35,393 nucleotides of DNA from Alphaproteobacteria bacterium (GTDB lineage Bacteria > Pseudomonadota > Alphaproteobacteria > Sphingomonadales > Sphingomonadaceae), in NCBI GenBank assembly GCA_030431435.1, contig JAUIJI010000014.1, forward strand, positions 1-35,393, given 5' to 3'. Below, piece after piece: positions 18,803-21,844 of the stretch; position 1 is the first letter of the stretch, and the number at the start of each line of letters is the position of its first letter. The position numbers and the translations under genes were made by a program. Under the pieces are notes generated by a model that saw nothing but the letters and a program-made list of their open reading frames with translations, made no database searches and was not told the DNA's origin.

Positions 18803-20803
18803 CTAGCCCTTCAGGTCTGGCGCCGTCGTTGTATCCTTCAACAGCGCCACCGCTTCATCGAGCGACAGGAATTGCTGCTGCTTTTCTCCCAGCGTGCGCA
18901 GCGCAACGGTGCCTTCCTCCGCCTCGCGCTTGCCGAGCACGAGGATGTAGGGAACCTTGGCGTGGCTGTGTTCGCGCACCTTGTAGTTGATCGACTCGTT
19001 GCGGAAATCGGTCTCCACGCGGATGCCGAGCGCGGCCAGCTTTGCTTCCACTTCCTTGGCATAGGGATCAGCATCGGAAACGATGGTAGCGACCACAGCC
19101 TGCACCGGCGCAAGCCATGCGGGCACTCGGCCAGCGAAGTGCTCGATCAGAATACCGATGAAGCGCTCGTATGAACCGAAGATCGCACGGTGGAGCATGA
19201 CAGGGCGGTGCTTTTCGCCATCCTCGCCGACATAGGTTGCATCGAGGCGTTCGGGCAGGACACGGTCGGACTGGATCGTGCCCACCTGCCAGGTGCGACC
19301 GATGGCGTCAGTCAGGTGCCATTCGAGCTTGGGGGCATAGAAAGCGCCTTCGCCGGGCAGTTCTTCCCAACCGGATTCCTCGGTCGCCATGCCGGCGTCT
19401 TTCACCGCCTGGCGCAGCTCTTCCTCGGCCTTGTCCCAGTCCGCGTCAGAGCCAAACCGCTGTTCAGGGCGCAGGGCGAGCTTGATCTCGTAAGTGAAGC
19501 CGAAGTCCTTGTAGACCCGGTCCGCCAGTTCGCAGAAGGCGCGCACTTCGGCCACGATCTGGTCCTCGCGGCAGAAGATATGCGCATCGTCCTGCGTGAA
19601 CTGGCGCACGCGCATCAGGCCGTGCAGCGCGCCATGCGGTTCGTTGCGGTGGCAGCAGCCGTTTTCATAAAGGCGCAGCGGCAAGTCGCGATACGACGTG
19701 ATCCCCTGCTTGAATACCTGCACGTGCGCCGGACAGTTCATCGGCTTCAGCGCCATCCAGTCCGCATCATTGGACACGATGGGCCCGTCATCCTCGGTGT
19801 TGGGCACTTCATCCGGGATGACGAACATGTTCTCGCGATACTTGCCCCAGTGGCCCGATTTCTCCCACTGGCGCGCATCCATCACCTGCGGCGTCTTGAT
19901 TTCCTGATAGCCCGCGCCGTCGATCGCGCGGCGCATATAGGCCTCCAGCTCGCGCCAGATCTTGTAGCCGTTGGGATGCCAGAAGACAGAGCCATGCGCC
20001 TCTTCCTGCAGGTGGAACAGATCCATCTCGCGGCCAAGCTTGCGGTGGTCGCGCTTGGCGGCCTCTTCCAGCCGCATGAGGTGCTCGTTGAGCTGCTTCT
20101 TGTTGAGCCAGCCGGTGCCGTAAATGCGCGTGAGCTGCGCATTCCTCTGGTCACCGCGCCAATAGGCCCCGGCGACGCGCATCAGCTTGAAGGCTTGCGG
20201 GTCAAGCTTGCCGGTGGAAGGCAGGTGCGGGCCGCGGCACATGTCGAGCCAGTCATCGCCTGACCAGTAAACCGTCAGCTCCTCGCCTTCGGGAAGTTCC
20301 TTTGCCCATTCAGCCTTGAAGGTTTCGCCATCCTTTTCCCACTTGGCGATCAGGTCCGCCCGGCTCCACGCCTCGCGCCGCAAAGGCTTGTCGGCCTTGA
20401 TGATCTCGCGCATCTTTTCCTCGATGGCAGGCAAATCATCCATGCCGAAAGGCTCGCGATTGGCAGGGGCCATCACGTCATAATAAAAGCCGTCGTCCGT
20501 GGCGGGACCGAAGGTGATCTGCGTGCCCGGCCACAAGGCCTGCACCGCTTCAGCGAGTACATGGGCATAATCGTGCCGCGCCAGCTCCAAGGCCTCTGCC
20601 TCATCCTTCGCCGTGACCAGCGCCAGCTCGGCATCGCCATCGAAAGGGCGGGTAAGATCGCGCAACTCGCCATCCACGCGCGCGGCAAGTGCCGCCTTGG
20701 CAAGGCCGGGGCCGATCGCAGCCGCGACATCGGCTGGCGTGGAGCCTTCGGGCATTTCGCGCACCGAACCATCGGGAAGGCTGATCTTCAACAACTCGCT
20801 CAT
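18803..20803 (-). CDS. thrS: Threonyl-tRNA synthetase
   Basis: Charges tRNA-Thr and edits mischarged serine. The 666-residue class II enzyme shows all expected parts: an N-terminal TGS domain ([20 protein letters not shown]), the second additional editing domain with the [10 protein letters not shown] motif (HxxxH) and the Cys of DMCRGPHL, motif 1 around the helix after [10 protein letters not shown], motif 2 with the zinc ligand Cys357 in MNCPAH and [15 protein letters not shown], motif 3 with [15 protein letters not shown], and an anticodon-binding domain at the end. Start ATG 20803 is preceded by a purine-rich GAGAGCGAG. Its leader carries a threonine-rich ORF and alternative hairpins, so expression is probably tuned by threonyl-tRNA supply. 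Confidence 0.97.
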
Positions 20804-20865
20804 CGAAACTCGCTCTCAAATTCACTTGGACGCGCCATGGCATAGTGCAGCGCGCACGCAAAGGG

Positions 20866-20964
20866 GCGGCGTCAGTCTGTCAGGCAGTTTCGGATGGAGG
20901 ACGCCGCACCACCCGAAACCGGGTGGCGTCAGTCGCGTATCAGGCCACGACCAACCGCCCCCGG
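20866..20964 (-). promoter_or_regulatory. Putative thrS attenuator (alternative RNA structures)
   Basis: Four segments in transcript order: 1, CCGGGGGCG (20964-20956, inside the leader ORF); 2, GACTGACGCCACCCGG (20934-20919); 3, CGGGTGGTGCGGCGTC (20915-20900); 4, GACGCCGC (20873-20866). Segment 2 pairs with 1 (nine pairs, one bulged A) or with 3 (GACGCC with GGCGTC, or CCACCCG with CGGGTGG); segment 3 pairs with 4 (eight pairs). Segments 2 and 4 share GACTGACGCC as a direct repeat, so they compete for 3. A ribosome stalled on Thr codons would cover 1 and favour 2:3; one reaching the stop at 20940 would reach towards 2 and favour 3:4. Only three U residues follow 3:4, so it may be a weak or Rho-aided terminator. 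Confidence 0.75.
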
Positions 20965-21011
20965 CAAGGCGGGGTGGTAGTGGTTGTGGTGGTAGCGCGC
21001 TTCTGCGTCAT
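20940..21011 (-). CDS. thrS leader peptide (threonine-rich)
   Basis: A 23-residue ORF: ATG 21011, MTQKRA, then seven consecutive Thr codons (20993-20973: ACC ACC ACA ACC ACT ACC ACC), Pro-Pro-Cys, and a basic/hydrophobic end before TGA 20942-20940. Counting Thr2, eight of 23 residues are Thr. Placed 137 bases before thrS on the same strand and overlapping the first attenuator segment, it has the form of a regulatory leader peptide whose translation senses charged tRNA-Thr. A run of seven Thr codons here by chance is very unlikely. Confidence 0.82.
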   Translation of the reverse strand: MTQKRATTTTTTTPPCRGRLVVA

Positions 21012-21106
21012 GATGTCAGCATATAGTGTGCCATTCTTCACAAGTCACTAACCACGTCATAAGCCCCTCTTGGCGCTGCGCGTCTCAAGGCCCATGTTGT
21101 CCGGCA
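21012..21106. other. Divergent promoter region thrS leader / hydrolase
   Basis: The full thrS-hydrolase gap (20804-21106) is 303 bases; the thrS side is filled by leader and attenuator. In the rest, minus-strand TATATG (21025-21020) is a possible -10 only eight bases before the leader ATG, which would make the leader mRNA nearly leaderless. No convincing -35 was found, nor a clear plus-strand promoter for the hydrolase. Confidence 0.35.
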
Positions 21107-21844
21107 ATGGAAGAGATCGAAACACAGTTAACCGATGTTGGCGGCCGCCGCATCGCCTATCGGCATACTCCCGGCAGCGGCCCCGCCATCGTGTTCCTGC
21201 CGGGCTACATGTCCGACATGGCAGGCGGAAAGGCCACTGCCATTTTCGGCTGGTGCATGGCGGCAGGCCGCGAATGCCTGTTGCTTGATTATTCAGGCTG
21301 CGGCGAAAGCGACGGGGAGTTTGCCGATGGTACACTTACCCGCTGGTGCGAAGAAGTGGTCGCGCTCGTGCATGACAAGATCGGCAGTGACCGGGTGGTG
21401 ATCACCGGTTCATCGATGGGCGGCTGGCTGATGCTGCTGGTGGCGCAGCAGATTTCCAAACCCGTCGCAGGCCTTGTGGGCATCGCCTCCGCGCCGGATT
21501 TCACCGACTGGGGCTATTCCGATGAACAGAAAGCCTCGCTCGCTGCTGGCAAGACGATCTATGAAGAGAGCGACTACGGCTATGATCCGATGCCCACCCA
21601 CGCAGGCTTCTGGGCAGACGGGCAAGCGCAGTTGCAGCTGACAAGCGAAATCGCGCTCGATTGCCCGGTGCGGCTTCTGCACGGGCAGGAGGATGCGGAC
21701 GTGCCTTGTGACACCTCGCTGCGCCTCGCTGCTGCCTTGCGTTCAGAAGATGTGCAGGTGACGCTGGTCAAGGGCGGGGACCACCGCCTTTCGCGCGACG
21801 GGGATATTTCCCTGCTGTTGCGAACGGTGGCCTCGCTCCACTAG
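21107..21844 (+). CDS. Alpha/beta hydrolase
   Basis: A 245-residue serine hydrolase of the alpha/beta fold, substrate unknown. Visible parts are the oxyanion-side strand VFLPGYMSDM, DYSGCGESDG, the nucleophile elbow GSSMGGW (Ser in the centre), the acid in LLHGQEDADVP and the catalytic His in KGGDHRLSRDGD. The short cap and the GYMSDMAG segment resemble the carboxylesterase/palmitoyl-thioesterase-like ABHD10 group. Start ATG 21107; the frame extends to 21026 but would run through the thrS promoter region. First gene of a three-gene operon, 17 bases before the TPR gene. Confidence 0.85.
   Translation: MEEIETQLTDVGGRRIAYRHTPGSGPAIVFLPGYMSDMAGGKATAIFGWCMAAGRECLLLDYSGCGESDGEFADGTLTRWCEEVVALVHDKIGSDRVVITGSSMGGWLMLLVAQQISKPVAGLVGIASAPDFTDWGYSDEQKASLAAGKTIYEESDYGYDPMPTHAGFWADGQAQLQLTSEIALDCPVRLLHGQEDADVPCDTSLRLAAALRSEDVQVTLVKGGDHRLSRDGDISLLLRTVASLH

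Follow-up and report, generated by a model that had tools for sequence, protein, structure and literature searches.

In the contig of a sphingomonad bacterium analysed here (35,393 nucleotides in full, hereafter the window), the threonyl-tRNA synthetase gene thrS is preceded by a short open reading frame with seven consecutive threonine codons and by a downstream RNA region with alternative helices, and we consider it highly probable that this element is a ribosome-sensed attenuator of thrS. Ribosome-mediated control of thrS had already been proposed in a preliminary description of this DNA; that proposal is well supported by a cognate-codon ORF conserved among relatives, selection for threonine, covarying helices that exclude one another, and a switch predicted for ribosome stalling on the Thr run. 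The likeness drawn there to attenuators of the thrL, hisL and trpL type does not extend to the downstream part of the element, where a U-run is almost never found and an additional crossing helix is present.

Threonine-rich leader ORF upstream of thrS

The locus comprises the following features:
18803–20803, minus strand: thrS, encoding threonyl-tRNA synthetase of 666 aa (TIGR00418, E = 1.2e-191, exceeding the cut-off)
20940–21011, minus strand: leader ORF MTQKRATTTTTTTPPCRGRLVVA, with homologues at 59 of 80 named loci and a Thr-rich frame beside 110 of 110 fetched model matches
20973–20993, minus strand: seven consecutive Thr codons, the putative sensor (ACC ACC ACA ACC ACT ACC ACC), unique in the genome

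The leader frame runs from the ATG at 21011 to the stop at 20940 and contains 23 codons plus the stop. Its length, its seven consecutive Thr codons and its location on the thrS strand agree with the preliminary description, the gap to thrS being 136 nt instead of the 137 bases given there. An in-frame GTG at 21041, upstream of the ATG, would make the leader 33 aa long; the start in relatives corresponds to the ATG at 21011, with M at this position in 45 of 59 leaders. The closest named thrS loci belong to an unclassified alphaproteobacterial MAG (95%) and to Alteraurantiacibacter aquimixticola (92%), the leader peptide of the latter being identical in a genome of the same genus; the window therefore probably derives from Alteraurantiacibacter or a close relative. 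Downstream of thrS, on the opposite strand, lies a gene for a Porphyromonas-type peptidyl-arginine deiminase family protein (PF04371, 17613–18608, plus strand, E = 3.8e-99). Across both strands of the 2,903,816-base genome, (ACN)7 occurs only once, at the thrS leader, compared with 12 matches of the reversed-pattern control.

The leader peptides of relatives usually have the form M-x4-T(4-8)-xxx-RGR-xVA and a length of 23 aa, with Thr runs reaching nine residues. For the analysis of codons we used 112 non-redundant leaders, a set that may include the spurious sequence L069 here and in the helix, promoter and fold counts given below. Their stop codons are TGA in 62, TAA in 26 and TAG in 24 leaders. 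Among the 448 codons at four core positions, 425 encode threonine, with A at the first position in 433 and C at the second in 434, whereas the third position is divided among C (294), T (112), G (33) and A (9). In the set of 59 leaders, the entropy at the first two positions of the last four Thr codons does not exceed 0.29 bits, and that of third positions is 1.1–1.7 bits at codons -14 to -12 and 0.21 bits at the last Thr codon, the letters of which also precede the folded part of the RNA. Threonine is thus kept while third positions vary, and judging from these codon positions the selection acting on the leader appears to be for threonine.

We further examined the distribution of the leader. 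The preliminary description had named the absence of a Thr-rich ORF from related thrS leaders as evidence against its reading; such an ORF was found at 59 of 80 named sphingomonad thrS loci collected by a thrS scan, which by title belong mostly to Erythrobacteraceae, Novosphingobium and Croceicoccus, with some Sphingomonas and Stakelama. In reaching this count, two spurious leaders (L069 and L070) were dropped and two (L043 and L047) added by hand, which gave 58 named loci besides the window, and one further named locus (L034) was then added. No leader was detected at the other 21 of the 80 loci, and it is therefore dispensable in the family, although two of these loci (L007 and L067) have just 353 and 334 nt of upstream sequence and may still possess a distant leader.

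We used 38 leaders to build a covariance model (R1) that starts at the last Thr codon and was given only two of the helices described below, 3:4 and 6:7. It matched 137 of 397 family genomes, once in each, representing 36 of 96 genera. In a sample of 240 genomes from across the class it matched two, both members of the sphingomonad family. These counts are lower bounds, with stricter filters in use and low scores for diverged Sphingomonas forms, for example L047, L072 and L034 (E from 0.0004 to 0.1). The loci of 110 of the 137 matches were fetched, including that of the window and those of some species that had also supplied training sequences. All 110 contain thrS, and in 109 a Thr-rich frame was recognized by rule, among them L255, where a start codon is missing from the expected position; the frame of L301, with three Thr, failed the rule. 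Combining the 59 named and 110 fetched loci gives leaders at 169 of 190, with L055, L069 and L070 treated as spurious and L009 and L301 added. A search of the window and 99 of 302 loci matched 99 of these 100 sources, L034 being the one unmatched. Among the best 30 family loci, one of them unreadable, the leader was visible by eye in about 14. At the class level, a run of four ACN codons is absent upstream of thrS in all 20 recognized thrS genes among the best 30 loci; ten loci were unreadable by script, and L136 has only 219 nt of upstream sequence.

Alternative helices downstream of the threonine run

The RNA following the Thr run contains several complementary segments, listed below. A shorter alignment (A2) of 38 of the 59 leaders was used for counting paired cells; leaders with insertions or diverged spacing are among the 21 that it omits.
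20959–20974, minus strand: hairpin 1:1' (CCCCG/CGGGG), directly after the Thr run, with 88.9% of cells paired on A2
20946–20959, minus strand: segment 2, in the codons for RGRLV, pairing with segment 3
20920–20937, minus strand: segment 3, of which 20920–20928 pairs with segment 4, and 20925–20929 and 20932–20937 pair with segment 2
20907–20919, minus strand: segment 4 and the loop of hairpin 3:4, of which 20907–20915 pairs with segment 3 and 20909–20919 with segment 5
20900–20905, minus strand: segment 6 (GGCGTC), the partner of segment 7
20887–20897, minus strand: segment 5 (CCATCCGAAAC), with 11 pairs to segment 4 in the window
20868–20873, minus strand: segment 7 (GACGCC), the partner of segment 6, helix 6:7 crossing helix 4:5 (pseudoknot)

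Helices 2:3, 3:4 and 4:5 are mutually exclusive through shared segments, 3:4 and 4:5 because segments 3 and 5 both pair with segment 4, and helices 4:5 and 6:7 cross because segment 6 is situated between segments 4 and 5. The pseudoknot loops in 102 leaders have median lengths of 1 nt for L2 (seven outliers exceed 10 nt) and 14 nt for L3 (interquartile range 13–15), and L1 was measured poorly, the script having over-extended the helices; the L2 and L3 lengths fit a candidate H-type pseudoknot.

On A2, the fraction of paired cells is 94.6% for helices 3:4 and 6:7 together, 86.8% for helix 4:5 and 82.0% for helix 2:3, with 39, 18 and 23 double-change cells, respectively, and in each case none of 500 shuffles reached the same fraction. 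The number of additional pair types for 3:4 and 6:7 does not rise above shuffles (449/500), and one pair of helix 4:5, at columns 71–89, is unpaired in 36 of 38 rows; the former result counts against attenuation. For hairpin 1:1', covariation is not beyond chance, with 153 of 500 shuffles as high on A2 and a permutation z of 2.3. A permutation test comparing pairing within and between sequences of the 112 leaders gave z of 14.6 for 3:4, 11.4 for 4:5 and 9.0 for 6:7 (0/5000 each), compared with 3.8, 2.6 and 0.5 in the respective parallel-pairing controls, and only 1.8 for 2:3 (183/5000), shuffles and permutations alike leaving the relatedness among leaders in place.

Mutual information was calculated from the 94 rows of the R1 alignment, which leans to the modelled helices 3:4 and 6:7, with 4:5 and 2:3 lying outside the model. 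The five strongest pairs all fall within 6:7, 3:4 and 4:5, with z of 23.6 (pair 73–106, the strongest) and 14.4 in 6:7, 14.0 in 3:4 and 11.6 in 4:5 (pair 58–88), and pair 18–50 of helix 2:3 reaches 6.2. Against this stand some high-scoring pairs outside the helices (4–8, z 8.1; 76–118, z 7.4). Taken on these alignments, helices 3:4, 4:5 and 6:7 covary, and 2:3 does so least securely. The loop of hairpin 3:4 varies (GTTT, GCTT, GGTT and others) and changes together with segment 5, and in the diverged Sphingomonas leader L034 the order of segments 3, 4 and 5 is kept, by eye, in different letters.

RNAalifold applied to the first alignment (A1) recovered helices 2:3, 3:4 and 6:7 with 13 pairs but no pair of 4:5, which we put down to misalignment. 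The fold of the whole leader of the window has a z of -1.68 relative to shuffles, 11 of 200 being as good, which counts against the attenuator reading; such a slight gain may be as expected of alternative folds. No Rfam family, the T-box included, matched the window at gathering scores or the region 20700–21150 up to E = 5.

We then folded the transcript of 105 leaders, truncated after segment 5, with a ribosome placed either over the Thr run or at the stop codon, using Vienna calculations, which ignore pseudoknots and kinetics. The mean probability of helix 4:5 is 0.69 with the ribosome stalled, 0.18 with the ribosome at the stop codon and 0.23 without a ribosome, and the respective values for helix 3:4 are 0.22, 0.57 and 0.49. 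Stalling raises 4:5 in 97 of the 105 leaders and the stop position raises 3:4 in 78; the 27 leaders in which 3:4 is not higher at the stop than upon stalling count against the switch. In the window, the probability of 4:5 drops from 0.999 to 0.07 between the two positions, and that of 3:4 at the stop is just 0.04. Stalling, as opposed to completion of the leader, is thus predicted to shift the fold from 3:4 to 4:5.

Proposed mechanism and alternative explanations

Upstream of the leader ORF and close to thrS we identified the following candidate promoter elements:
21043–21048, minus strand: -35-like hexamer GTGACT of promoter P1, the window reading GTGACT-N17-TATATG
21020–21025, minus strand: -10-like hexamer TATATG of P1, ending 8 nt before the leader ATG in the window
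20835–20863, minus strand: thrS-proximal element CTTTGC-N17-CCATGG, conserved in leader-positive genomes and possibly a second promoter

Among 111 non-redundant leaders, 65 have a TGA[CA] motif beginning 34 or 35 nt ahead of the ATG, 85 have their best -10-like hexamer ending 6 or 7 nt ahead of it, and the fitted P1 spacer is 17 in 89; limited to 6–7 nt before the ATG, the fit took another register in the window. A strict sigma-70 scan of 20700–21200 found no promoter. The spacing between the -10 hexamer and the ATG points to a transcript start at or near the AUG, and the leader is probably a leaderless mRNA with its transcription start site at the AUG or a few nucleotides from it. The CCATGG part of the thrS-proximal element occurs as one of nine variant strings in 91 of 112 leaders, with a possible extra hairpin around it (z 2.8, 11/5000, compared with 1.0 in the control), and a loose match to CTT...(TGTGCCA or GGCATA) is present at 6 of 21 leader-negative loci. 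The mean score of P1-type promoters within 75 nt of thrS is 4.89 at leader-negative loci (3.14 in shuffled sequences) and 2.70, no better than in shuffled sequences (3.12), at leader-positive ones (Mann-Whitney P = 4e-4, 22 vs 58 loci), the 22 loci including L009, which has a leader, and the matrix having been derived from these same leader promoters. Nine of the 22 (L007, L020, L046, L051, L055, L060, L063, L064 and L073) have a -10 hexamer that ends 6–8 nt upstream of the thrS ATG, suggesting that the thrS mRNA may itself be leaderless at these leader-negative loci.

The proposed mechanism is as follows. Transcription from P1 would begin at or beside the start codon of the threonine leader ORF. 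Under a shortage of charged tRNA-Thr, the leading ribosome would stall in the Thr run and leave segment 2 free to pair with segment 3; segment 4, barred from segment 3, would then form helix 4:5, crossing 6:7 as a pseudoknot, and this would be the ON state. With charged tRNA-Thr in good supply, the ribosome would proceed to the stop codon and cover segment 2, hairpin 3:4 would form, segment 5 would stay free and thrS would be lowered. Helix 4:5 is assigned to the ON form because starvation has to raise thrS. Translation of the ORF, the transcription start site, the direction of the response and the OFF step are the parts of this model that we infer.

The gene order bears on the level of control. 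In at least 17 loci (five named and twelve fetched), another ORF separates the leader stop from thrS, which lies 632–664 nt downstream. In 14 of the 17, this ORF encodes a protein of about 165 aa that begins with MRYY or MRYF, or does so behind an upstream start, another frame having been printed by the script for the other three. One inserted protein shows weak likeness to the Pfam Rv2179c-like 3'-5' exoribonuclease, at an E of 6.5e-4 that falls below the cut-off. Such an exoribonuclease-like ORF separates the leader from thrS in L029, L033, L035, L036, L244 and L261, and in L277 a short stub of it (the first codons) is left, with the leader stop 224 nt from thrS, suggesting that a deletion brought the leader next to thrS. 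In the near loci, 121 to 174 nt separate the leader stop from thrS. The element has the same form at these varied distances to the following start codon, and this favours an action on transcription.

Action of the same sensor and helices on translation is, in our estimation, unlikely. Formation of 3:4 would here leave segment 5 free to pair with the thrS start region and block initiation, and 4:5 would release the thrS start. In the window, CGAAACT can form seven perfect pairs with AGTTTCG just before the thrS ATG, as also in L002, and spans of up to 15 nt with mismatches are found in L015 and L019, but many leaders offer just 4–5 pairs. A permutation test of segment 5 against positions -6 to +9 of thrS gave z of 5.2 for 47 leaders (0/1000, with relatedness uncontrolled and 8 of the 59 leaders omitted) and 3.9 for 112 leaders; the parallel-pairing control reached 2.7 over the same positions, so that most of the signal is taken by the control and may reflect relatedness, and this pairing was rejected as a candidate. 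At loci with the inserted gene, segment 7 lies, by eye, near the ribosome-binding site of that gene, as action on translation might have it, whereas the variation of the stop-to-thrS distance in near loci speaks against such action.

The near-absence of U-tracts counts against transcriptional attenuation, the reading we prefer. The best 8-nt stretch after hairpin 3:4 contains at most four T in all 112 leaders and five in none; five T in 8 nt follow helix 4:5 in 4 of 106 leaders and segment 7 in 1 of 102, and a terminator scan gave no match inside the leader of the window. The helices thus almost never carry a U-tract, and the element is not a textbook intrinsic-terminator attenuator. It is quite improbable that hairpin 3:4 acts as a classical intrinsic terminator without a good U-tract: it is GC-rich, has at least seven pairs in 95 of 112 leaders, occupies the position of a classical terminator and competes with 2:3, but the T counts and the missing terminator match at this very hairpin speak against termination there, and the covarying helices 4:5 and 6:7 would be left without explanation. 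A comparison with ilvB leaders from the genus of the window points in the same direction. By eye, most of 12 combine a GC-rich hairpin with a T-rich tail behind it, e.g., TCTTTT (L155 is an exception), and U-tract terminators therefore seem to be used in this sphingomonad clade. These ilvB upstream regions (L148–L159) show no obvious branched-chain leader ORF by eye and represent another attenuator candidate; no attenuator was seen by eye in 13 trpE upstream regions of the genus. In two Sphingomonas loci, L047 and L072, CTTTT is found about four bases after helix 4:5, where termination with the opposite logic is possible.

Because the helices almost never carry a U-tract, Rho-dependent termination would be the most likely OFF step of a ribosome-sensed attenuator, a ranking that is a guess drawn mainly from absence. 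Rho has likewise been proposed for actinobacterial cys leaders without terminators by their discoverers (PMC1262725). The Thr run has a C content of 0.50 and a G content of 0.13. As a tentative extension, the element might constitute a new clade-specific class of amino-acid attenuators, in which a ribosome stalled on a leaderless Thr-run ORF picks the pseudoknot (4:5 with 6:7) over hairpin 3:4, Rho-dependent termination controls thrS or the inserted exoribonuclease-like gene together with thrS, and the C-rich Thr codons double as a Rho loading site that is masked by the stalled ribosome.

Two other explanations dispense with a sensing ribosome. E. coli ThrRS autoregulates through binding its own leader, and a structured RNA conserved at thrS could likewise be a protein-binding site, for ThrRS or another protein, with the Thr ORF being incidental. 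We regard this as very improbable, given that selection keeps the Thr codons while third positions drift, and that the hairpin loop is variable, changing in step with segment 5 instead of retaining an anticodon-like triplet. That the leader is a functionless low-complexity ACC repeat arisen by chance upstream of thrS, as its repetitive look alone might suggest, has a practically negligible probability and is refuted by conservation in 36 of 96 genera, codon-level selection and covariation.

Relation to known leaders and significance

Attenuators of the thrL, hisL and trpL type end in a hairpin with a U-run. A short cognate-codon ORF followed by competing helices is common to ribosome-mediated attenuators (trpL, hisL, thrL, pheST, leuS, trpS2 and hisS) and to the sphingomonad element, which differs from them in its thrS target, a Thr run of up to nine codons, a predicted leaderless ORF, the presence of a fifth segment and a crossing helix, and the lack of a U-tract terminator. 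At the E. coli thrS operator, ThrRS binds a tRNA-like RNA, and no Thr-codon leader is known there; this system shares with the sphingomonad element the gene and the control through a 5' leader, and differs from it by relying on protein–RNA binding. The operator is mentioned in PMC2965389, as is a hisS leader in bacilli. PMC1262725 describes the hairpin and U-run at the end of the trp attenuator, attenuators of synthetase genes (pheST, and leuS and trpS2 in Streptomyces) and the predominance of T-boxes among synthetases in Firmicutes.

Three systems come closer in particular respects. In Caulobacter, another alphaproteobacterium, a translated short ORF precedes the synthetase gene trpS (PMC4117421), comparable to the putatively translated leader ORF of thrS, although the gene is a different one. 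The actinobacterial LEU element upstream of leuA resembles the thrS element in its cognate-codon ORF, in a conserved pseudoknot opposed to an alternative hairpin and in having no clear terminator (PMC1262725). It belongs to another gene and another phylum, the Leu codons and the Shine-Dalgarno box together form its base stem, and its authors doubt that leader translation drives the control. The trpL leader ORF of the alphaproteobacterium Sinorhizobium meliloti is carried by a transcript that starts at the ATG, like the predicted leaderless ORF of thrS, but it controls trpE(G), and its attenuator ends in a terminator that releases an sRNA (PMC7298713). No description of a Thr-codon leader of thrS was found among the literature matches listed, which comprised titles and the starts of abstracts and covered few subscription journals, and its novelty is provisional.

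The thrS leader would extend control by cognate-codon leaders to threonyl-tRNA synthetase in an alphaproteobacterial family, and it combines strong covariation for alternative folds, the pseudoknot included, with the lack of a U-tract terminator. The way in which leader-peptide elements without terminators act thereby becomes directly testable. In sphingomonads, the element is a candidate sensor for threonine charging or for the inhibition of ThrRS.
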